From the IMG/VR virus record IMGVR_UViG_3300028400_000022, positions 1 to 33,413 of that record: a stretch of 33,413 nt of DNA; one strand, 5' to 3'. Source of the DNA: a virus. Positions 4,973 to 30,266 of the stretch are shown piece by piece. How positions within the stretch are numbered: the stretch's first letter is position 1; every line of letters begins with the position of its first letter. The notes under the pieces were generated by a model, which ran no database searches, was not told the DNA's origin, and saw nothing but the letters and a program-made list of their open reading frames with translations. A program made the position numbers and the translations under genes.

Positions 4973-7540
4973 ATGGCCTCTATCACATCAGCCGCGTCCG
5001 GTAACTGGTCGTCCACCGCAACATGGGTGGGCGGCGTGGTGCCGGGCGCGGGTGATGATGTCACTATTGATGCCGGACACACTGTTACTGTAGACACTGC
5101 AACAACCGTTGGTGTAAGTGGTGCTGCCGGGACAGTTGCAATTCAAATCCTGAGCGGAGCTGGCGGTCTAACAATTAACGCTGCTCTTGAGATTCGTGGC
5201 GATTTGATATTCGAGCGCGGCACCACACTTGATCAGAACGCGGATATTACCATTCGCGGCGCGTCAGGCGTCGAATACCAGATCCAAGCCTCTACAACTG
5301 GCACCGGAACCGCCACATGGAACGCCGGGGTATCCGGCCCGGTTGCGGTGCGCTCAGACTTCACGGATGGCGGTCTGCCGGGTTATATCCAGATGATGCT
5401 GGGAGGTCTTGCCTATGTAGAGGTCAACTGGCAAGACATGAGTCTTTACGACACCGGATCCAGCTCTCGCGAGGCATTGCGATGGGTTGACTGGGATTAC
5501 AATAATTTCGTTTGGCTGGGAGGCATGGCCATCCGCTGCGGACAGCTGTATTTCCCGCTCGCCAGGACTTCGTCAAACTGGCAGATCGAGAATGTCGATA
5601 TCCGCGACCCGGCAAATACCGCGTTCATCAACGCTTCGTGGAGCGGAACACCTACCGGCACACGACGCGTCCAGAACTGTACGGCATACGATTCGTCTGG
5701 CCGACAAATGCAGCTTCAGATATACGGCCCTGATCCGGTTTACAACAATAATGTTTTTGTCGATGTGAACTGTCAGACCACGACGGTCACAGGCAAGCAG
5801 TTCACATATAACTTTTTTGTTTTTCAGCTGTCCACCGGGACGCTTAGCATTGCGGGTGATTCAAACGCGCTGGTCGATAATAATGTCTTTTATGCACATG
5901 CTGATAATCCACACCATGTCTCGGAGTCGTCGTCTGCATCATTATCCATCAACAATTATACGAATAATATATTCGATGGCGATGGGTATGTAGGATCGGA
6001 TTTTGGTGACTGCATCATTCCGACGGGTGAGGTGTCGGTACGCAACAACATCAACATCAATGATGCCGGCACATTGGTTGCGTTGCTCAATACAGCGGCG
6101 ATTGCAGATATTGAAAATAACACGGTTGATGGTTCCCAATGGGTAAATGTCGGGGAGTCAGCAGGTGCGGCGACACAACTGCGGAATGTTCGCAGTAATT
6201 TATTTACCAATGAATTAAGGGGACTGCGCCAAGATACGGCATTCGTTACACAAACGGCATTTGCTCTGAATAACAACGGCTTCTGGAATATGACAGACGC
6301 CACTAACCTGGATAATGGAGGGAATAATAGTTATCTCGGCGCAGAGACTTATGCTGCTTGGAGCTCTTCCGCCACTTATCCAAGCACTGGGTTTGGCGAT
6401 GCAGACGTTTATGCTGATCCGGGATACCAAGATGGAACACGCACTCTGGCAACATGGGATGCCGCGAACGGAGGCGCTGGAACAATCACGAGTGTGATCG
6501 CTGAGATCGTCAAACTGAACGGGCGCGACACTGCTGGAAATTCGGCTACCTTCAACTCGAACTATTCGATATCCAGCGCACAAACATACATCAGGTATGG
6601 ATACACCCCGACCAACTCGGCCTTGGCGGGGGCGGGATATGGGGGGAGCGATATTGGGGCGTTAGCGGTTCAAACGGCATCTGCAGCAAACGTATCAATT
6701 GACTCGACGCTTGATGATGTCGGCGGCCAGATTGCGGCAACGATTCAAGCTAATGCGTCCGTTAATTCAACGCTTGATGGCGCTACCGGCCAGGTACAGG
6801 CATCCGTTCAGGCAGACGCCTCTATCAATTCCACACTCGGTGGTGCTGCCGGCACAATAGCCGCATCGGTTATCGTCGCCGCATCCATCGCCGCAACACT
6901 GGGCGGCGTTTCCGGGCAGGTCAACGCCTCGGCACCGGCTGCGGCAACCATCGCGGCCACGCTGGAAGGTGCGCAGGGCCAGGTGGCAGCCACAGCGCCA
7001 GCCGCAGCCGATATTTCTGCCCAGTTGGCCGGGGCATCCGGTCAGGTCCAGGCCACGGCGCCAGCCGCCGCGAGCGTCGCATCGCAGCTCGCCGGGGCTT
7101 CCGGCACGCTGAACATTACGACTTCTAGCGATCACAACGTCACCATTTCGGCGACGACGGAAGACGCGTCCGGGCAGGTGTCCGCGGCAGTCATTGCCGC
7201 AGCATCCATCAGCGCCACAATCGAGGATGCAGCCGGAACAGTCTCGGTCACGGCCCCGGCGGCTGCCACGATTGCTGCCCAGGTCGAGGACGTCGCCGGC
7301 ACACTGTCAGTCAGCTCGTCGTTCAATGTCAGCATCTCGGCGACGCTGGAAGGTGTGGCGGGACAGGCGACAGCCGCGGTTCCGGTGGTTGCGTCAATTT
7401 CCTCGACGCTGGAAGATGCTGCAGGATCCGTCTCCGTGTCGATCCCGGTGGCGGCGGTATATACTACAGAGCAGATCACCATCACGGCGGAATACCGGAC
7501 TGCCAAGATACCGGCAGAGCGCCGGACCATCAAAATCTGA
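4973..7540 (+). CDS. Large beta-rich tail fibre-like protein with 12 Ala-rich repeats
   Basis: The 855-residue protein has three zones. Residues 1-100 resemble a G8-type beta domain (GNWSSTATWVGGVVPGAGDD and GHTVTVD). Residues about 100-560 are rich in Asn, Thr and Ser with repeated short strands, as in right-handed beta helices of phage tailspikes. Residues about 570-825 contain twelve imperfect copies of a 21-residue unit of the form SIxATLEGAxGQVxATAPAA. The C-terminus (YTTEQITITAEYRTAKIP) is a separate short tail. I infer a receptor-contacting or stalk protein. The zone near 5700-6600 has much more AT-rich codons than its neighbours, suggesting exchange. The ATG at 4973 has only a weak ribosome site; an in-frame TGA at 4964-4966 separates it from an upstream ATG that overlaps the previous stop. 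Confidence 0.72.
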   Translation: MASITSAASGNWSSTATWVGGVVPGAGDDVTIDAGHTVTVDTATTVGVSGAAGTVAIQILSGAGGLTINAALEIRGDLIFERGTTLDQNADITIRGASGVEYQIQASTTGTGTATWNAGVSGPVAVRSDFTDGGLPGYIQMMLGGLAYVEVNWQDMSLYDTGSSSREALRWVDWDYNNFVWLGGMAIRCGQLYFPLARTSSNWQIENVDIRDPANTAFINASWSGTPTGTRRVQNCTAYDSSGRQMQLQIYGPDPVYNNNVFVDVNCQTTTVTGKQFTYNFFVFQLSTGTLSIAGDSNALVDNNVFYAHADNPHHVSESSSASLSINNYTNNIFDGDGYVGSDFGDCIIPTGEVSVRNNININDAGTLVALLNTAAIADIENNTVDGSQWVNVGESAGAATQLRNVRSNLFTNELRGLRQDTAFVTQTAFALNNNGFWNMTDATNLDNGGNNSYLGAETYAAWSSSATYPSTGFGDADVYADPGYQDGTRTLATWDAANGGAGTITSVIAEIVKLNGRDTAGNSATFNSNYSISSAQTYIRYGYTPTNSALAGAGYGGSDIGALAVQTASAANVSIDSTLDDVGGQIAATIQANASVNSTLDGATGQVQASVQADASINSTLGGAAGTIAASVIVAASIAATLGGVSGQVNASAPAAATIAATLEGAQGQVAATAPAAADISAQLAGASGQVQATAPAAASVASQLAGASGTLNITTSSDHNVTISATTEDASGQVSAAVIAAASISATIEDAAGTVSVTAPAAATIAAQVEDVAGTLSVSSSFNVSISATLEGVAGQATAAVPVVASISSTLEDAAGSVSVSIPVAAVYTTEQITITAEYRTAKIPAERRTIKI

Positions 7541-15640: not shown

Positions 15641-16570
15641 TCAGACCTCCACGCCGTAATCTGGCGGCAGGAAGTCGTCGATATTGACCGGCTCTTGCGG
15701 CTGATCATCATCGGCAGGAGGCTGTGGTTCGTCTGGCGGCGCGGTCTTCTTCGCGGCCTTCTTCTTTGCCTTGCGCGCCACCTTCTCGGCCACCTTGTCG
15801 GTCTTCGTCTCCGGCTCTGGCGTCGCCTCTGGCACCTCTGTGTGCTCAAATACCCCCTCCAGCACTTCGCGCGCATTCTGCTCGCCGCGGTCGGCAAGCT
15901 CGTCGAGATAGACGCCCTGCTGCAGTTCAGGGCATTGCGGCAGATAGCGCGCCAGCACCCGGATCGGTGTCTTGCGGATCATGGCTTCCTGGTTGGTATT
16001 CCATGGGCTGCCCGAGCTCTCGGCGGATTTGCTCTGCGCCCTGTGGGCCATGATTTCCCGCCATGGCAGCACCTCGAATTGGTGACCGCCATTGCGTAGC
16101 GTGGCCACGGCATAGGCGGCGATCACGCGGCCAGGGTCGTCTGCCGTGGATGGGACATGGCGCAGAAATTCATTGGTTCCATACTGATACTCGAAAACAT
16201 CAGCCTCCCGGACCTCGTGCGCCTCAATCTTGATGACATGGCCGGAGCGCATAGCGAGATTGATCAGGCCCTTGTAGCCGGTGATCATCTGCACCTCAAG
16301 GCATTTCCGATAGCTGTTGTAAAAGGGGACGAGATAGGCCAGGCCGCGCCCGTCGATCTCCAGGCCGAGCTGGCTGGCCTGGACCACGGCGCCGATGAAC
16401 GAGACCGGATCGGCCTCCATCAATTTCGGATTCCGGCGCATTTCGTTCAGGGCCAGGCGCGCGATCTTCTCGAAGGCGATCCCGGTCGGCAGCACGCTCT
16501 CTAGGCCCTTGCGGTTTTTCTCGAGAAGCTGGGCGACGGTGCGATAGTTCTGGTTGGCGATTTCGTTCAT
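15641..16570 (-). CDS. recT: RecT-family single-strand annealing protein
   Basis: The 309-residue protein binds single-stranded DNA and anneals complementary strands; with the upstream exonuclease it forms a phage two-component recombination system. The RecT core is clear in residues about 1-215: FIGAVVQASQLGLEIDGRG, GLAYLVPFYNSYRK, VQMITGYKGLINLA and WNTNQEAMIRKTPIRVLARY. The last 70 residues are a low-complexity tail with a Lys/Ala-rich part (AEKVARKAKKKAAKKT) and an acidic end (PVNIDDFLPPDYGVEV), which may bind partners such as SSB. The start overlaps the exonuclease stop by four bases (ATGA). Confidence 0.95.
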   Translation of the reverse strand: MNEIANQNYRTVAQLLEKNRKGLESVLPTGIAFEKIARLALNEMRRNPKLMEADPVSFIGAVVQASQLGLEIDGRGLAYLVPFYNSYRKCLEVQMITGYKGLINLAMRSGHVIKIEAHEVREADVFEYQYGTNEFLRHVPSTADDPGRVIAAYAVATLRNGGHQFEVLPWREIMAHRAQSKSAESSGSPWNTNQEAMIRKTPIRVLARYLPQCPELQQGVYLDELADRGEQNAREVLEGVFEHTEVPEATPEPETKTDKVAEKVARKAKKKAAKKTAPPDEPQPPADDDQPQEPVNIDDFLPPDYGVEV

Positions 16571-17490
16571 TTGCTGATCTCCGCTTTGAGGCGCATGACG
16601 CGCGTTTCTGTGGTTTTGGTGAATTTCTCGGCCACCTGCGGCAGGCGCTCACGGATGGCCGTCGTGTCGAGCCGTGACGACGTCTGCGGCCGCCAGGTCA
16701 ACAGCGTCTTGCCGGTCTCGGGGTCGATCAGGTCCGTGGCGTCACGCATGAACGACCCGATCTCGGCCTTGATGCGGTCTTCCTCGATGCCGAGCGCCTT
16801 CATGCGCGCCTTCACGTGCCGCAACTGCTGGACCTTTTCGAGGGTGTCGGCATCCGCCATGACCGTCAGGCCCATCGACCCGCGCCAGACCTTCACGGCG
16901 TCTTCGTAGCGCACCGGGTTCGGCGGATCCTCGGTCTCGACGTGGTGCCAGAACTCGCGCGACAGATCGATGTAGTCTTCCGCGAGGCGCTCGTTGAGGC
17001 GGATCCGATAGGTCCGAAAATCCGACCCGCCAAGCAGGACGCCCATGTTCCAGATCTTTACGTCGTAGACGATCATGTAGTGGGTGCACTGCAGGATGTC
17101 AGATTCCAGCACCTCGTCCGACCCGGAGGGCCCGTATTCGCTGGCCCGGAAAATGCCGCGGTTCTTGATTTCCAGGCCCTCGTTTGCGCCGACCACCCAG
17201 CGGTCGATATTGCCGCGCAGCCAGGGGTATTTCTTCGACACCCGCGGCAGCCGTCGGCGCTGGATGGCGTGGCCGGTCTCGAAGGCCCAGGCCTCGGCGA
17301 TTGGCGCCTCGAGCTGATTGCCCCAGTAGCGGGGATCTTCCGGGGTGATGGGTGGCTCAGGCTGCACGTCGCCGATCTTCTCGAGATAGACGTCCAGCTC
17401 GGTGCGGTAGGGATCCACGCCGGCGATGGCCGGGGCATCGGATCCACCGATCCCGGCCTGGCGCTCGCGGCGTTGTTCGTCTGTCAGCAT
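16567..17490 (-). CDS. YqaJ-family viral recombinase exonuclease
   Basis: The 307-residue nuclease should resect double-stranded DNA ends 5' to 3' and give single strands to RecT. Family motifs are visible: GIGGSDAPAIAG at 13-24, GNQLE with E61, GNIDRW with D96, LEIKN with E107 and K109, and DILQCTHYM with Q134, which together form the lambda-exonuclease-like metal site. The C-terminal half adds a helical extension with VKARMKALGIEEDRIKAEI. A GGAGC site precedes the ATG, and a promoter-like sequence sits at 17514-17542. Its stop overlaps recT. Confidence 0.93.
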   Translation of the reverse strand: MLTDEQRRERQAGIGGSDAPAIAGVDPYRTELDVYLEKIGDVQPEPPITPEDPRYWGNQLEAPIAEAWAFETGHAIQRRRLPRVSKKYPWLRGNIDRWVVGANEGLEIKNRGIFRASEYGPSGSDEVLESDILQCTHYMIVYDVKIWNMGVLLGGSDFRTYRIRLNERLAEDYIDLSREFWHHVETEDPPNPVRYEDAVKVWRGSMGLTVMADADTLEKVQQLRHVKARMKALGIEEDRIKAEIGSFMRDATDLIDPETGKTLLTWRPQTSSRLDTTAIRERLPQVAEKFTKTTETRVMRLKAEISK

Positions 17491-18809: not shown

Positions 18810-19766
18810 ATGGCAAAGATCCGAACCATCAAGCCGGATTTCTATACCTCGGAGCAAGTGGCGGAATGCTCAATCCGGGCGCGCTACCTGTTCATCGGGC
18901 TGTGGGTCTTCTCGGACGACAGCGGTATCCATCCGGCCAGCCCGCGGCGCCTGAAGATGGAAATCTTCCCAGCCGACGACATCACCGCGGACGACATCGA
19001 CATCGCCGTCACCGAGCTAATCGCGGCCGGCCTGCTTACCCCATACGAGGTAGACGGGACGAAATATCTGCAGGTGAACGGGTTCGATGAGCACCAGAAA
19101 ATCACGCGGCCATATTACAAACACCCACTCCCAGACGGGACAATACCCGAATCCTGGCGAGACCAACAGCGAAAAAAGTACCATGATCAGCAATCAAGCA
19201 CTGCCCAAGCACTGCCTGAGCACTGCTCGAACACAACCCAAGCAGGAGACGATCACTGCCCGAACGACAATGGAAATGGAAATGGAAATGGAAATGGAAA
19301 TGGAAATGGAAAAAACCTTAAACCCCAGGTCCCCAGGCCTGTGGATAACTCTGTGGATAACTCGCCATCTGTGGATAACTCTGTGGATAACTTTTCAGGT
19401 GATGAAAACGACCAAGATCCGCGCCTGAATGCTGCCGCCTGGGAGGCCTGGGTAACCCACCGCGAGGAAGCAGACGGCAAACCGCTGGCCGTGGCCACGA
19501 AAGCCAAGCAGCGCGATTGGCTCATCACAGAGACCGGAGGCAATCATGAAAAACAGGCCGAAATCATCGAATACACCATCCGCCAGGGCTACAAAGGCCT
19601 CGCCTGCCCACGCTCGCATAGCAGGCGACGAGATCAGGGCTGGATGGCCTCACGGGAGGGGGTCGAGAAAAAAGCCGCTGAGATCGGCTTACAGGCCCGC
19701 AGAGGGGAAACGCATGAACAGTTGAAATCGCGGATCCTGCAGGTCATGGACCATGGCCGCGCGTAG
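18810..19766 (+). CDS. Phage replication initiation protein (O-like) with embedded origin
   Basis: The 318-residue protein should bind the phage origin and load the host helicase. The N-terminus (KIRTIKPDFYTSEQVAECSI, RYLFIGLWVFSDDSGIHPAS) is a well-known start of phage replication proteins with a winged-helix domain. Residues about 112-195 are low complexity: a Gly-Asn run near 153-167 and VDNS repeats near 177-194. The C-terminal part (AWEAWVTHREEADGKPLA and QAEIIEYTIRQGYKGLACP) is the conserved partner-binding module of the same family. The VDNS codons are at the same time four perfect DnaA boxes. The ATG has a CGGAGA site upstream. Confidence 0.85.
   Translation: MAKIRTIKPDFYTSEQVAECSIRARYLFIGLWVFSDDSGIHPASPRRLKMEIFPADDITADDIDIAVTELIAAGLLTPYEVDGTKYLQVNGFDEHQKITRPYYKHPLPDGTIPESWRDQQRKKYHDQQSSTAQALPEHCSNTTQAGDDHCPNDNGNGNGNGNGNGNGKNLKPQVPRPVDNSVDNSPSVDNSVDNFSGDENDQDPRLNAAAWEAWVTHREEADGKPLAVATKAKQRDWLITETGGNHEKQAEIIEYTIRQGYKGLACPRSHSRRRDQGWMASREGVEKKAAEIGLQARRGETHEQLKSRILQVMDHGRA
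19269..19311 (+). repeat. Tandem AATGGA hexamer tract beside DnaA boxes
   Basis: Seven tandem copies of AATGGA run through the replication gene and encode alternating Gly and Asn. The tract is purine-rich on one strand and ends in A6, ahead of the DnaA boxes. It could help strand opening at an origin or only encode a linker; its in-phase period allows length change without frameshift. Confidence 0.75.
19340..19390 (+). other. Putative replication origin: four DnaA boxes
   Basis: TGTGGATAA, the reverse complement of the strongest DnaA box TTATCCACA, occurs perfectly four times: 19340-19348, 19352-19360, 19370-19378 and 19382-19390. Start-to-start spacings are 12, 18 and 12 bases. They lie inside the coding sequence of the replication protein, as lambda iterons lie inside gene O. 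Host DnaA is therefore the likely binder. Spacing symmetry and perfect conservation argue against a coding accident. Confidence 0.78.
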
Positions 19767-21027: not shown

Positions 21028-21462
21028 ATGGAGCGCGGATACAACAAATGCACATTCGTTGGCCGGCTGGGCCGGGATCCAGAGATCCGGTACAGCCAGG
21101 AAGGCAAGCCGGTCGCCAAGCTGTCGCTGGGTGTCACCGACCGCAAGGACAACACGGAATGGATCCCGGTGGTCGCCTTCGACAAGATGGCCGACATTAT
21201 CGGCCAGTATCTCGGCAAGGGATCGCGTGTCCTCATCGAAGGCCGATGGCGCACCCGCAAGTGGGAAGACAAGCACGGCGCGACACGATACATGACTGAA
21301 TGCGTGGCCAGTGAAATGTTGATGCTCGGCGGGCAACCAGATCAGCGCCATGCCCAATCTGCACCGCAGGCGTCCGACGCCAGGCCGCCGCAGGAATCGC
21401 CGCCCGCATCAGATGCCGCCACGCCTGGCATGGGAGATTTCGACGATGACATTCCGTTTTGA
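21028..21462 (+). CDS. ssb: Single-stranded DNA-binding protein
   Basis: The 144-residue protein has the OB-fold of bacterial-type SSB in residues about 1-105 (NKCTFVGRLGRDPEIRYSQE, WIPVVAFDKMADIIGQYLGK, RYMTECVASEM). A flexible Gln/Pro/Ala-rich linker leads to the acidic tail GDFDDDIPF, the standard docking peptide for replication and repair partners. It would coat single strands at the fork and work with RecT, RusA and host enzymes. The start is the first ATG, following a GAGGTGA site. Confidence 0.96.
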   Translation: MERGYNKCTFVGRLGRDPEIRYSQEGKPVAKLSLGVTDRKDNTEWIPVVAFDKMADIIGQYLGKGSRVLIEGRWRTRKWEDKHGATRYMTECVASEMLMLGGQPDQRHAQSAPQASDARPPQESPPASDAATPGMGDFDDDIPF

Positions 21463-21842: not shown

Positions 21843-22287
21843 GCCGGTCATCCTGCGCCTGCCGTTTCCGCCATCCGTCAACGGTTATTGGGAGCGCGCA
21901 TCGGCCTTCGGCAAAGGTGGACGGCGCGTTCCTGCGATGCGTATCGGCAAACGTGGACGCCAATACCGTACAGCGGTCATGGCCGCCGTCAATGCCGAAA
22001 TGTTCCGCCGCCGGCTGCGCGGATTCGTCAACGATGAACGCCTGCGGATCGATATCGTTCTCTCCCCGCCAGACCGGCGCCGGCGCGACATCGACAACTA
22101 CAACAAGGCGCTGTGGGATGCCCTTGTCCATGCCGGCCTGTTCGCCGATGATTCCCAGATTGACGAAGCACGAATCACGCGCGGCCCGGTCATCAAAGGC
22201 GGCGCAGCATTTATCCGTCTCGCCGAGCAAGACACACCCGACGTCCAATCCTGGGCACAACAACTGATGGAATCCGAGCATGTTTGA
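21829..22287 (+). CDS. rusA: RusA-family Holliday junction resolvase
   Basis: The 152-residue endonuclease would cut Holliday junctions formed in phage recombination and replication. The signature is clear: LPFPPSVNGYW near 11-21, and the catalytic block RRRRDIDNYNKALWDAL with D87 and D89, then GLFADDSQIDE with D107/D108. Length agrees with the family (about 120-150). It overlaps both neighbours and completes the recombination set with RecT, exonuclease and SSB. Confidence 0.94.
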   Translation: MPAAEPVILRLPFPPSVNGYWERASAFGKGGRRVPAMRIGKRGRQYRTAVMAAVNAEMFRRRLRGFVNDERLRIDIVLSPPDRRRRDIDNYNKALWDALVHAGLFADDSQIDEARITRGPVIKGGAAFIRLAEQDTPDVQSWAQQLMESEHV

Positions 22288-23575
22288 CAACCGTATCACC
22301 CGCCACACCACCGAGAATCCGCAGGATCTGCTTGCCAACCCGTACAACTTCCGCGTGCACTCCCAATATCAGCAGAAAGCATTGGCCGGCGCACTTGAGG
22401 AAATCGGCTGGATCCAATCCGTGATCGTCAACGAGACCACGCAGCACATCATTGACGGTCATGCCAGAATCATGATCGCTATGCGCGAAGGCGAGGAAGC
22501 CGTACCAGTTGCTTGGGTGAAACTTTCCGAGGACGAAGAAAAGAAGGCGCTTGCCATATTCGACAAGATTTCCAGCCTGGCCGGCACGGATGACAGCACT
22601 CTTGGGACGCTGCTTGCCGAGATAGACGAAATCGGGATCGACAACCAAGATCTTGATGAACTGATCAAAGACATGGAAGCCGCGCTTGAGCGCGAGACAG
22701 AAGACGATGATGGCGAAGGCGAACCGGAGCCGGATCCGCCAGCCGCGACGGACGAGCCCGTGCCGTGCTTGGGTGATGTCTGGCAGATAGGGCCGCATAA
22801 GCTGATCGTTGCCGATTCGACGTCAGACGATGCGCCAGGACAAGCGATTGAGGAAAACAACGGCAAGCCATTCGATATGATTTTCACGGATCCACCGTAT
22901 GCAATCTATGGATCGAGTACCGGGATCGCTGCTGACATCACAGATGACAAGATGGTCAGGCCATTCTTTCTGTCAACACTGCGTGCCATCGAAAAGACCA
23001 TCAAGACTTTTGGGCACATCTATGTGTGCTGTGACTGGCGATCCTGGGCATCATGGTGGGAGGTTTGCAAAAAGACATGCCTGGCGCCGAAGAACATGAT
23101 CGTCTGGAACAAGCAAGGCGGTCTCGGCGCGATGTATGCCAATGCGCATGAACTGATCCTGTTCGCCTCTGCGCAGCCAATGCAGGACAGAATGACAAAG
23201 AAGACAACCGGCGAGCGAACTGTTCAGGGCGCGAACGTCTGGACGCTCAATCGTGCCGGAAATTCCGAGACGGGTGGCGAGACGCGAGAACACAACGCGC
23301 AAAAACCCGTAGCGCTAATGGAGAAGGCGATAGAGCAGAGTGCAGATAAAGGGCAAACCGTCCTGGATCTGTTTGGCGGATCGGGATCGACGCTGATTGC
23401 AGCAGATAGGCTTGGAAGAAAATGCGTGCTGTTCGAGATTGACGAGAAATTCGCCGACGTTATTCTTCGACGCGCCATCCGCGACACTGAGCACACGCCA
23501 AAGCTGGCGTATTGCGATGACGGCGCAACCATAGGCGCAACTTACGAAGAAGTGAAGGCCGAACGACATGGATAA
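22280..23575 (+). CDS. ParB-like domain fused to DNA N4/N6 methyltransferase
   Basis: The 431-residue protein has two parts. Residues about 10-100 form a ParB/Srx-like domain (NFRVHSQYQQKALAGALEEI, then IIDGHARIMIAMREGEEAV). After an acidic linker (about 138-160) comes a DNA methylase: the catalytic DPPY at 204-207 precedes the AdoMet motif FGGSG at 365-369, the order of beta-class N6-adenine/N4-cytosine enzymes. It probably methylates phage DNA against restriction; similar ParB-methylase fusions are common in phages. No nuclease partner is beside it. Confidence 0.9.
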   Translation: MFDNRITRHTTENPQDLLANPYNFRVHSQYQQKALAGALEEIGWIQSVIVNETTQHIIDGHARIMIAMREGEEAVPVAWVKLSEDEEKKALAIFDKISSLAGTDDSTLGTLLAEIDEIGIDNQDLDELIKDMEAALERETEDDDGEGEPEPDPPAATDEPVPCLGDVWQIGPHKLIVADSTSDDAPGQAIEENNGKPFDMIFTDPPYAIYGSSTGIAADITDDKMVRPFFLSTLRAIEKTIKTFGHIYVCCDWRSWASWWEVCKKTCLAPKNMIVWNKQGGLGAMYANAHELILFASAQPMQDRMTKKTTGERTVQGANVWTLNRAGNSETGGETREHNAQKPVALMEKAIEQSADKGQTVLDLFGGSGSTLIAADRLGRKCVLFEIDEKFADVILRRAIRDTEHTPKLAYCDDGATIGATYEEVKAERHG

Positions 23576-28580: not shown

Positions 28581-29141
28581 ATGATCAATTTCGATACCAA
28601 CCGCTGGAAGACGCCGGCGCAATTCATCCTGAACGTGCTCGGCATGATCGATCCGCTGCAGTCCATGACGTGGATTGACTGTGCAGCCGATCACGAGAAT
28701 TTCGATGCCGAGCTGTTCGAGGACTATTACGGCCCGCGCGAGGCGGATGGACCGCCGCTTGTAGAACGGCGCCTGGATTCCGAGACCCTGGGCTGGCTGA
28801 ACCCGCCATACGGCGGCAATCCGCCCATTATCGAATGGGTACGATGGGCAGCTCGAGAGGCATTCGAGAGCCGCGCCACAGTCGCCTGCCTGCTGCCTAA
28901 TTCGACGGACACATTATGGTGGGAACTGACCGTCCGCCGCGCGACCGCGGTCTATTTCATCCAAGGCAGGATAGCCTTCGAGCGCCCGGACGATGACGGC
29001 GTGTGGCGTCCTGCCGGCAATTCACGCCAGCCCAACATTCTCGCAATCTTTGCGCCGTCGAGACCGGCATTCCCCGGCGAAATGCCGTTTTTTGGGCTGA
29101 TGGACACCAGCGGCAGGCCGCTGAAAGCCGCAGACGAATGA
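28581..29141 (+). CDS. Phage DNA N6-adenine methyltransferase (Dam-like)
   Basis: The 186-residue protein matches the phage Dam-like family: it starts FDTNRWKTPAQFILNVLG, has WIDCAADHENFDAELFEDYY and the catalytic LGWLNPPYGGNPP with NPPY at 74-77. The family normally methylates adenine and protects phage DNA against host restriction. It is the second of three methyltransferases in the window. The Zn-ribbon gene starts in its stop (ATGA). Confidence 0.88.
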   Translation: MINFDTNRWKTPAQFILNVLGMIDPLQSMTWIDCAADHENFDAELFEDYYGPREADGPPLVERRLDSETLGWLNPPYGGNPPIIEWVRWAAREAFESRATVACLLPNSTDTLWWELTVRRATAVYFIQGRIAFERPDDDGVWRPAGNSRQPNILAIFAPSRPAFPGEMPFFGLMDTSGRPLKAADE

Positions 29142-29362: not shown

Positions 29363-29439
29363 TGACAGGCGTGGAGACAGACGTTCCACGGGGAACAAAA
29401 GTTAAAGCGGTTCCGCGTGATTCTGTCGTAACCTCATGA
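29359..29439 (+). CDS. 26-residue coupled ORF
   Basis: ATG at 29359 overlaps the previous stop and the ORF ends in ATGA at 29436-29439, the start of the C5 methyltransferase. The peptide is MMTGVETDVPRGTKVKAVPR plus a short end. GAGGAGAGG precedes it. It may act only to couple translation. Its DNA includes GTTCCACGGGGAAC (29383-29396), near the parS consensus. Confidence 0.45.
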   Translation: MMTGVETDVPRGTKVKAVPRDSVVTS

Positions 29440-30266
29440 ATATCTACGTCGATATCGACGAGTTTGTCGTAGATTGGCTGGACAACCTGCAGCGCAACGA
29501 CCTCCTACAAGCAGGCCATGCCGTCGTCATGGACATCACGAAGGCGCGGCCGTGGATGTTTCACAGCTACACGCAGGTCCACCTGTTCGCCGGCATCGGC
29601 GGCTGGCCGCTGGCGCTTCGCATGGCCGGCTGGCCGGATGATGAGCCTGTCTGGACCGGATCACCGCCATGCCAGCCATTTAGCAACGCCGAAAAACGCA
29701 AGGGGATGGATGATGAAAGACACCTGTGGCCCGCATTCTTCGATCTCGTACGCGAGTGCCGCCCTCCAGTCATCTTTGGAGAGCAGGTTGAAAGCGCGGC
29801 TCGGCACGGATGGCTCGATGCTCTACAAGCTGACCTGGAAGGAATTGGTTACGCATTCGGGGCGGCGGTATTGCCTGCTGCTAGCGTCGGCGCGCCGCAC
29901 ATCCGGCACCGGATCTTCTTCGTCGCGGAAATGGTGGCAGACGCCGGCGGCGAGGGACTACAGGAGCGAATCTGCAACAGACAGATTCAACAGGAAACGA
30001 TGGTCACATTCAAGAGGAAAACCACTAAGCGCAGTGGTGACATTAGTTACAGAATCGCAGCAGATTGGGATGATCTCGAATGGATCGAATGCTCTGACGG
30101 AAAAGCGAGGCCAACTCAACCCGGCCTTTTCCCGCTGGTTGATTGGGCTCCCGCCCGCGTGGGACGACTGCGCGCCTACGGAAACGCCATCGTCCCGCAA
30201 GTCGCAGCGGAATTTGTGAGAGCCTACATGGAGACAAGGCCGCAGATGTTTGAATCAAGCCGCTGA
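29436..30266 (+). CDS. C5-cytosine DNA methyltransferase (Dcm-type)
   Basis: The 276-residue enzyme has motif I (LFAGIGGWPLALRMAGW, from about 50), the catalytic motif IV GSPPCQPFS with C79, a motif-VI-like FGEQVE at 114-119 where ENV is usual, motif VIII with APHIRHRIFFVAE, and motif X YGNAIVPQVAAEF. The target-recognition region between VIII and X is short. It likely methylates phage DNA at cytosine for anti-restriction. A long second open frame (29518-30219) runs through the same DNA; see findings. No restriction partner is nearby. Confidence 0.92.
   Translation: MNIYVDIDEFVVDWLDNLQRNDLLQAGHAVVMDITKARPWMFHSYTQVHLFAGIGGWPLALRMAGWPDDEPVWTGSPPCQPFSNAEKRKGMDDERHLWPAFFDLVRECRPPVIFGEQVESAARHGWLDALQADLEGIGYAFGAAVLPAASVGAPHIRHRIFFVAEMVADAGGEGLQERICNRQIQQETMVTFKRKTTKRSGDISYRIAADWDDLEWIECSDGKARPTQPGLFPLVDWAPARVGRLRAYGNAIVPQVAAEFVRAYMETRPQMFESSR

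Follow-up and report, generated by a model that had tools for sequence, protein, structure and literature searches.

The middle of the replication-initiation gene of this phage, which codes for the linker of the initiator protein, is probably the replication origin of the phage. Within the window (the whole stretch of DNA analysed, a 33,413-base IMG/VR virus record) the linker-coding DNA contains, in this order, iterons with a period of 11 bp, an A+T-rich tract of AATGGA repeats and four exact boxes for the host protein DnaA. The best reading, based on comparison with known replicons, is an in-gene origin of the lambda or RepA_N type to which a plasmid-like host DnaA module would have been added. 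Coordinates are provided in Table 1.

Table 1. Features of the candidate origin and its surroundings, in positions of the window.
Feature	Positions	Strand	Basis
Replication-initiation gene, 318 aa	18810..19766	+	PHROG matches, AlphaFold2 model
Residue 99 (Thr) codon in the conserved motif HQKI-x-RP; candidate determinant of iteron specificity	19104..19106	+	Covariation of iteron class and residue
Initiator-type iteron array, 11-bp register	19195..19261	+	11-bp rows, core positions, Tandem Repeats Finder, family statistics
Tract of (AATGGA)7.3, rich in purine and A+T; candidate for unwinding	19269..19312	+	Tandem Repeats Finder, period 6
DnaA box 1, TTATCCACA	19340..19348	-	Exact match
DnaA box 2, TTATCCACA	19352..19360	-	Exact match
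DnaA box 3, TTATCCACA	19370..19378	-	Exact match; with box 4, in the second copy of a 30-bp direct repeat
DnaA box 4, TTATCCACA	19382..19390	-	Exact match; with box 3, in the second copy of a 30-bp direct repeat
Part coding for the C-terminal helical domain, residues 204-318	19419..19763	+	Secondary structure of the model; weak phrog_678 match
Single-strand DNA-binding protein gene, neighbour in the replication module	21028..21462	+	Pfam SSB, E 9.8e-29

The protein shows significant profile matches to two PHROG families named 'replication initiation protein' (phrog_1408, E 4.8e-37; phrog_2149, E 3e-32), which supports the statement in an earlier note on this DNA that the boxes lie within a replication gene. 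Residues 120-271 also match weakly to the O-like initiator profile phrog_678 (E 3e-5). A Pfam search with the initiator gave no match, RepA_N was matched neither by this protein nor by the members of the N-domain alignment, and a search of NCBIfam gave no match either, including to the phage_O N-terminal domain model TIGR01610. The AlphaFold2 model (62 sequences) predicts a winged-helix N-terminal domain (confident for residues 1 to approximately 130), a disordered linker (residues 139-203, mostly with pLDDT < 50) and a set of helices (residues 204-317); the C-terminal domain formed by the latter may contact the helicase or primosome. Sequence searches of the PDB yielded no relative, and fold matches are weak, the best being 4pql (E 4.5e-3), which we take to be the N domain of RepA_N plasmid initiators. 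No close relatives in viral contigs were confirmed by single-protein search. The repeat arrays correspond to residues of approximately 129 to 194: the iterons start around residue 129, whereas the AATGGA tract and the DnaA boxes lie wholly within the DNA of the disordered linker, so that residues 139-203 cover most of the arrays. A linker that is predicted to be disordered would leave its coding DNA room to evolve into a binding array.

No DnaB_C or IstB/DnaC-type domain was found in the 33-kb record, which is a fragment beyond which a helicase could lie. The lack of a recognised helicase or loader in this possibly incomplete record is consistent with the use of the host helicase. Adjoining the replication module, the minus strand encodes a RecT-like annealing protein and a RecE/YqaJ-like exonuclease (15641-17490), and the genes for SSB, RusA and a YbcO-type nuclease follow downstream on the plus strand. 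The window also contains three DNA methyltransferase-like genes (22280-23575, 28581-29141 and 29436-30266), one of which is fused to a ParB-like N-terminal part.

The iteron array of the window is small, with just three perfect GCACTGC cores (at 19198, 19209 and 19220) and one near copy, TCACTGC, with a single mismatch (at 19253); two degenerate rows lie in between. Tandem Repeats Finder reports a period of 11 (CAAGCACTGCC) for 19195-19244, and the register continues to 19261. This third array was missed in the earlier note, which described the period-6 and period-12 arrays only and contrasted lambda, with its own iterons, to a phage that has host DnaA sites instead. That contrast is not supported, as the gene has both. 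The AATGGA tract, which had been described as seven copies next to the boxes, indeed comprises 7.3 perfect copies encoded as NGNGNG. With 69% A+T and 84% purine in 19267-19315, it forms an A+T-rich tract adjoining the iterons.

Exact matches likewise bear out that four perfect boxes with a start-to-start spacing of 12/18/12 sit in the coding sequence. All are in one orientation, with TGTGGATAA as plus-strand spelling, and there are no other exact DnaA boxes in the 33,413 bases. The looser consensus TTWTNCACA matches five times against 0.92 expected, a number reached in none of 100 shuffles. Tandem Repeats Finder reports the four boxes as a period of 12 (CTGTGGATAACT, 19339-19392), and this 12-bp repeat lies within a 30-bp duplication; the boxes are therefore not four independent events but one spelling that was multiplied. 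Elsewhere in the window (5890-5913), two near-consensus boxes (TTATGCACA and TAATCCACA) lie at a distance of 15 bp where the local sequence is rich in A+T. GC skew, one of the checks proposed earlier, shows no clear turn at the site and was dropped as evidence for an origin.

It might be argued that the linker is a neutral low-complexity region in which slippage has expanded a 12-bp unit and a hexamer, the resemblance to DnaA boxes being without function. The disorder of the linker in the model, the 12-bp and 30-bp duplications and the perfect microsatellite nature of the AATGGA tract all fit such an origin. We nevertheless give this explanation a small chance, given that the 9-mer is exact four times while the T preceding each box comes from codons that are rare in the phage (TCT 5%, CCT 10%). 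When the linker peptide was recoded with synonymous codons at the frequencies used by the phage, 200,000 trials produced 0 to 3 boxes and never four. Together with the spelling of the boxes in a second initiator family (see below), these trials led us to reject VDNS as a requirement of the protein.

To find comparable cases, we scanned for VDNSVDN with any codons and for doublets of DnaA boxes, and collected long open reading frames with in-frame boxes; since the search patterns included the peptide, the frequency of boxes obtained is biased, whereas their spelling is not. Many of the frames with exact in-frame double boxes are unrelated initiators, namely an O-like protein (L039) and winged-helix proteins (L067, L113, L164 and L206), and a Lin1244-like protein (L161) combines an exact box with a near one. 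Against a neutral linker, portal, tail-tube and unclassified phage proteins with VDNSVDN mostly do without an exact double box, with the exception of L166, to which no function was assigned. The same 9-mer is found in unrelated initiators, and there the change between VDN and VDK falls outside the box. This is best seen in the second family, that of L164 (29 dereplicated genes): of its 33 VDN/VDK sites, 21 are spelled as exact boxes where 3.4% would be expected, with a p value inflated by kinship. The N/K switch is made by the base just outside the box, by which the 9-mer stays exact, and a minority of sites is degenerate (TGTAGATAA, TGTGGACAA and TGTTGATAA). The earlier note had asked whether boxes are conserved beyond what the amino acids require, which is the case in this family. 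It had named relatives with VDNS retained and boxes degenerate as the refuting outcome; here the opposite is observed, with residues that change and a 9-mer that does not.

Several of the boxed initiator genes also carry repeats of their own 3' of the boxes, and the combination of boxes and iterons inside one initiator gene is a recurrent composite. Four members of the second family (L509, L511, L526 and L530) have such repeats just 3' of the in-frame boxes, at a spacing of approximately 24-25 bp (GGTGCAACC, TGCAACATC, GAGGTTGCA and CAGAAGTTTCA). In another group of initiators (L408 and relatives) the DNA coding for VDNSVDN has two copies of TGTGGACAA, which departs from the DnaA consensus by a single mismatch and could be a box variant suited to a different host. 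In Methylocystis and Methylomagnum, plasmid replication genes (L425:1109-2032 and L426:878-2050) terminate with a pair of exact boxes that encode VDNSVDK or VDKSVDN.

A different picture emerges for the window's own family, for which 160 homologous loci were reduced to 115 dereplicated genes (window included). Strong repeats at lag 11, accompanied by echoes at lags 22 and 33, are present in 37.4% of these genes; the corresponding figures are 0.9% for 444 flanking segments and 0% for shuffles. As 11 is not a multiple of three, repeated codons or peptides cannot explain this periodicity. Of the 115 genes, 61 contain three or more perfect 7-mer palindromes as cores in a single 11-bp register, compared to 0-2 genes for control periods of 7, 8, 10, 13, 14, 16 and 17. 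The central base of this 7-mer unit is free, and the iterons fall into the classes TCG-N-CGA (44 genes), TCA-N-TGA (15) and GCA-N-TGC (2, being the window and L392). A purine repeat at lag 5 follows 3' of the iterons in 54.8% of the 115 genes (0% of flanks) and occupies the place that the AATGGA tract has in the window.

DnaA boxes, in contrast, are no family trait: an exact box within the gene was found in one of 115 genes, the window itself, and the flanks contain two in about 600 kb. Neither VDNS nor exact boxes occur in any of the sampled homologues of the window's initiator. An association of boxes with a missing phage helicase is not supported either, as 53 of the 106 homologues with enough downstream sequence have no nearby helicase or loader match and none of them except the window is boxed. 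The iterons rather than the boxes would thus be the common origin element of the family (61/115 against 1/115), and boxes are apparently not required by this type of initiator.

The absence of boxes from 114 of 115 related initiators could also mean that the iterons alone form the origin, whereas the boxes titrate or redirect host DnaA (a datA-like sink) or let DnaA regulate transcription through the initiator gene. Clusters of boxes in many phage contigs, mostly outside genes, would agree with such a role. Four boxes are few for a sink, however, and their position beside the tract, as in plasmid origins, as well as their return in initiator linkers of unrelated phages make this role rather unlikely. 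Being direct repeats in the initiator's own gene, the TGTGGATAA sites are iteron-like and might alternatively be bound by the phage initiator instead of host DnaA. This seems highly improbable: the sites of the family are palindromic 7-mers at 11 bp, whereas the boxes are non-palindromic, spaced at 12 bp, equal to the host DnaA consensus and shared with non-homologous initiators.

The more probable reading is an origin in which both elements take part. The claim that the phage recruits DnaA directly holds to the extent that recruitment is plausible, with boxes that are spelled at the DNA level and recur in frame in unrelated phage initiators. As the main initiator DnaA is less convincing; the gene has iterons, which are common in the family while boxes are not, and it is more likely that DnaA would act as a helper added to an iteron origin.

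The three iteron classes allow a search for protein positions that may read them. Residue 99 is D or E in 44 of 44 homologues of the TCG class and N in 15 of 15 of the TCA class (68/68 and 18/18 when two cores are taken as threshold), a link that rests on about four changes and is confounded by ancestry. These changes were counted on a tree built without the column of residue 99, in which members of the TCA class mostly form one clade; L292 stands apart with weak support. In the GCA class the residue is T (window) or A (L392). Among the listed matches of a DNA scan for more family members of this class, L392's own contig was the one family hit, all other GCA-N-TGC arrays being located in other or unrelated genes. 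That residue 99 determines iteron specificity is, on this covariation, a good hypothesis and not proof. The array of L392 (L392:3370-3543, on a contig shared with L616) is the longest seen, with 14 perfect (16 near-perfect) iterons at exact 11-bp spacing, and encodes repeated EQCSSSAQAVP peptides. A Pseudomonas-type subfamily (that of L127; L429-L508) is without 11-bp palindromes and has linker repeats around TGATTCC at lag 7, a different origin design.

The scan of IMG/VR for three GCA-N-TGC cores at 11 bp gave at least 120 contigs. In 95 of the 120 listed contigs the array lies (at a median codon of 126) inside an open reading frame homologous to ten sampled proteins, a number that counts relatedness among array-bearing frames, as the ten seeds were drawn from these. 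Such homology is found in just 105 of 3,221 open reading frames. Pfam assigns eight of the seeds to DUF1376 or Lin1244_N, with three of these scoring below the curated cut-off, and PHROG matches to initiator or primosomal families are seen for nine. The annotation of array-bearing frames as initiators comes from these profile libraries. One further array among the listed matches is that of L392, in the window's family. In-gene GCA-N-TGC arrays therefore seem to mark phage initiators, a group to which the three copies of the window would belong. None of the 120 listed arrays has a DnaA box within 400 bp, and the combination of iterons and boxes in the window looks unusual among them. Contigs such as L594, L595, L605, L610 and L642 (and approximately 90 others) carry 3-8 of these iterons at 11 bp around codon 126 of DUF1376/YdaU-like and Lin1244-like genes.

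Comparison with known systems shows likenesses to several of them. The origin of lambda lies in the middle of gene O, where phage-specific iterons adjoin an A+T-rich tract (PMC7466680, PMC5043065). The window shares with lambda and Stx phages this position and the iterons beside the tract, the array at 19195-19261 providing repeated sites in the initiator gene that are candidates for binding by the initiator. Differences concern the iterons (O dimers bind longer repeats in lambda, against 7-bp palindromes every 11 bp here), the four added host DnaA boxes and the N-terminal domain, which is not recognised as phage O. In plasmid pSK41, the initiator of 319 aa has three domains (a winged-helix N domain of about 120 aa, a central linker and a C domain) and the origin consists of four Rep boxes in the linker-coding DNA of rep (PMC5703833). 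The window likewise has a three-domain initiator with candidate origin arrays in the DNA between N and C domains, a likeness to the RepA_N type in position alone: there is no RepA_N Pfam match, the iterons differ and DnaA boxes lie beside the tract. RK2 has four DnaA boxes with its iterons (PMC4980987) and P1 has DnaA boxes beside an A+T-rich region (PMC5043065); in both, the boxes help to open the origin and to deliver the helicase (PMC4980987, PMC5043065), and the iterons measure 17-19 bp (PMC4980987). The set of iterons, A+T-rich region and DnaA boxes is fully present in the window. Here all elements are inside the initiator gene, in contrast to RK2 and P1, whose origins are not known to lie within the rep coding sequence. 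Genes with DUF1376 (PF07120) or Lin1244_N (PF14297) show the same 7-bp palindrome, 11-bp register and linker position as the window, though with other N-terminal domain families and, in the 120 arrays listed, no DnaA box within 400 bp.

By analogy with lambda, pSK41, RK2 and P1, the initiator would bind the iterons, open the tract and load DnaB together with DnaA. Its winged-helix domain would recognise the 7-bp palindromes, which lie one helical turn (11 bp) apart, and the resulting strain could melt the AATGGA tract. Host DnaA, bound beyond the tract to the four boxes that share one orientation, may then stabilise the opening and help to deliver host DnaB (with DnaC) to the melted strand.

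The candidate origin of the window is of a known in-gene iteron type and new in its host DnaA module; a literature search found no report of DnaA boxes inside phage initiator genes or of iterons in DUF1376/Lin1244 genes, which does not prove their absence. More general than this is the family-wide occurrence of palindromic iterons at 11 bp. In our view there is about an even chance that the initiator families considered (that of the window, DUF1376/YdaU-like and Lin1244-like) share one kind of origin, made of 7-bp palindromes one helical turn apart in their own linker DNA. Its specificity classes would be few and distinguished by a small number of protein positions (in the window's family residue 99, with D/E for TCG and N for TCA), and host DnaA boxes would be an optional addition that unrelated phages have placed in the same linker. 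This provides a precise and testable candidate origin for large phage and prophage groups in which the initiator carries only a hypothetical or DUF annotation, and it shows how origin DNA fits into disordered protein linkers. A simple code of protein-DNA specificity could underlie replication compatibility, and with the DnaA boxes one can ask directly if phage replication is in some cases tied to host DnaA, as it is in plasmids.
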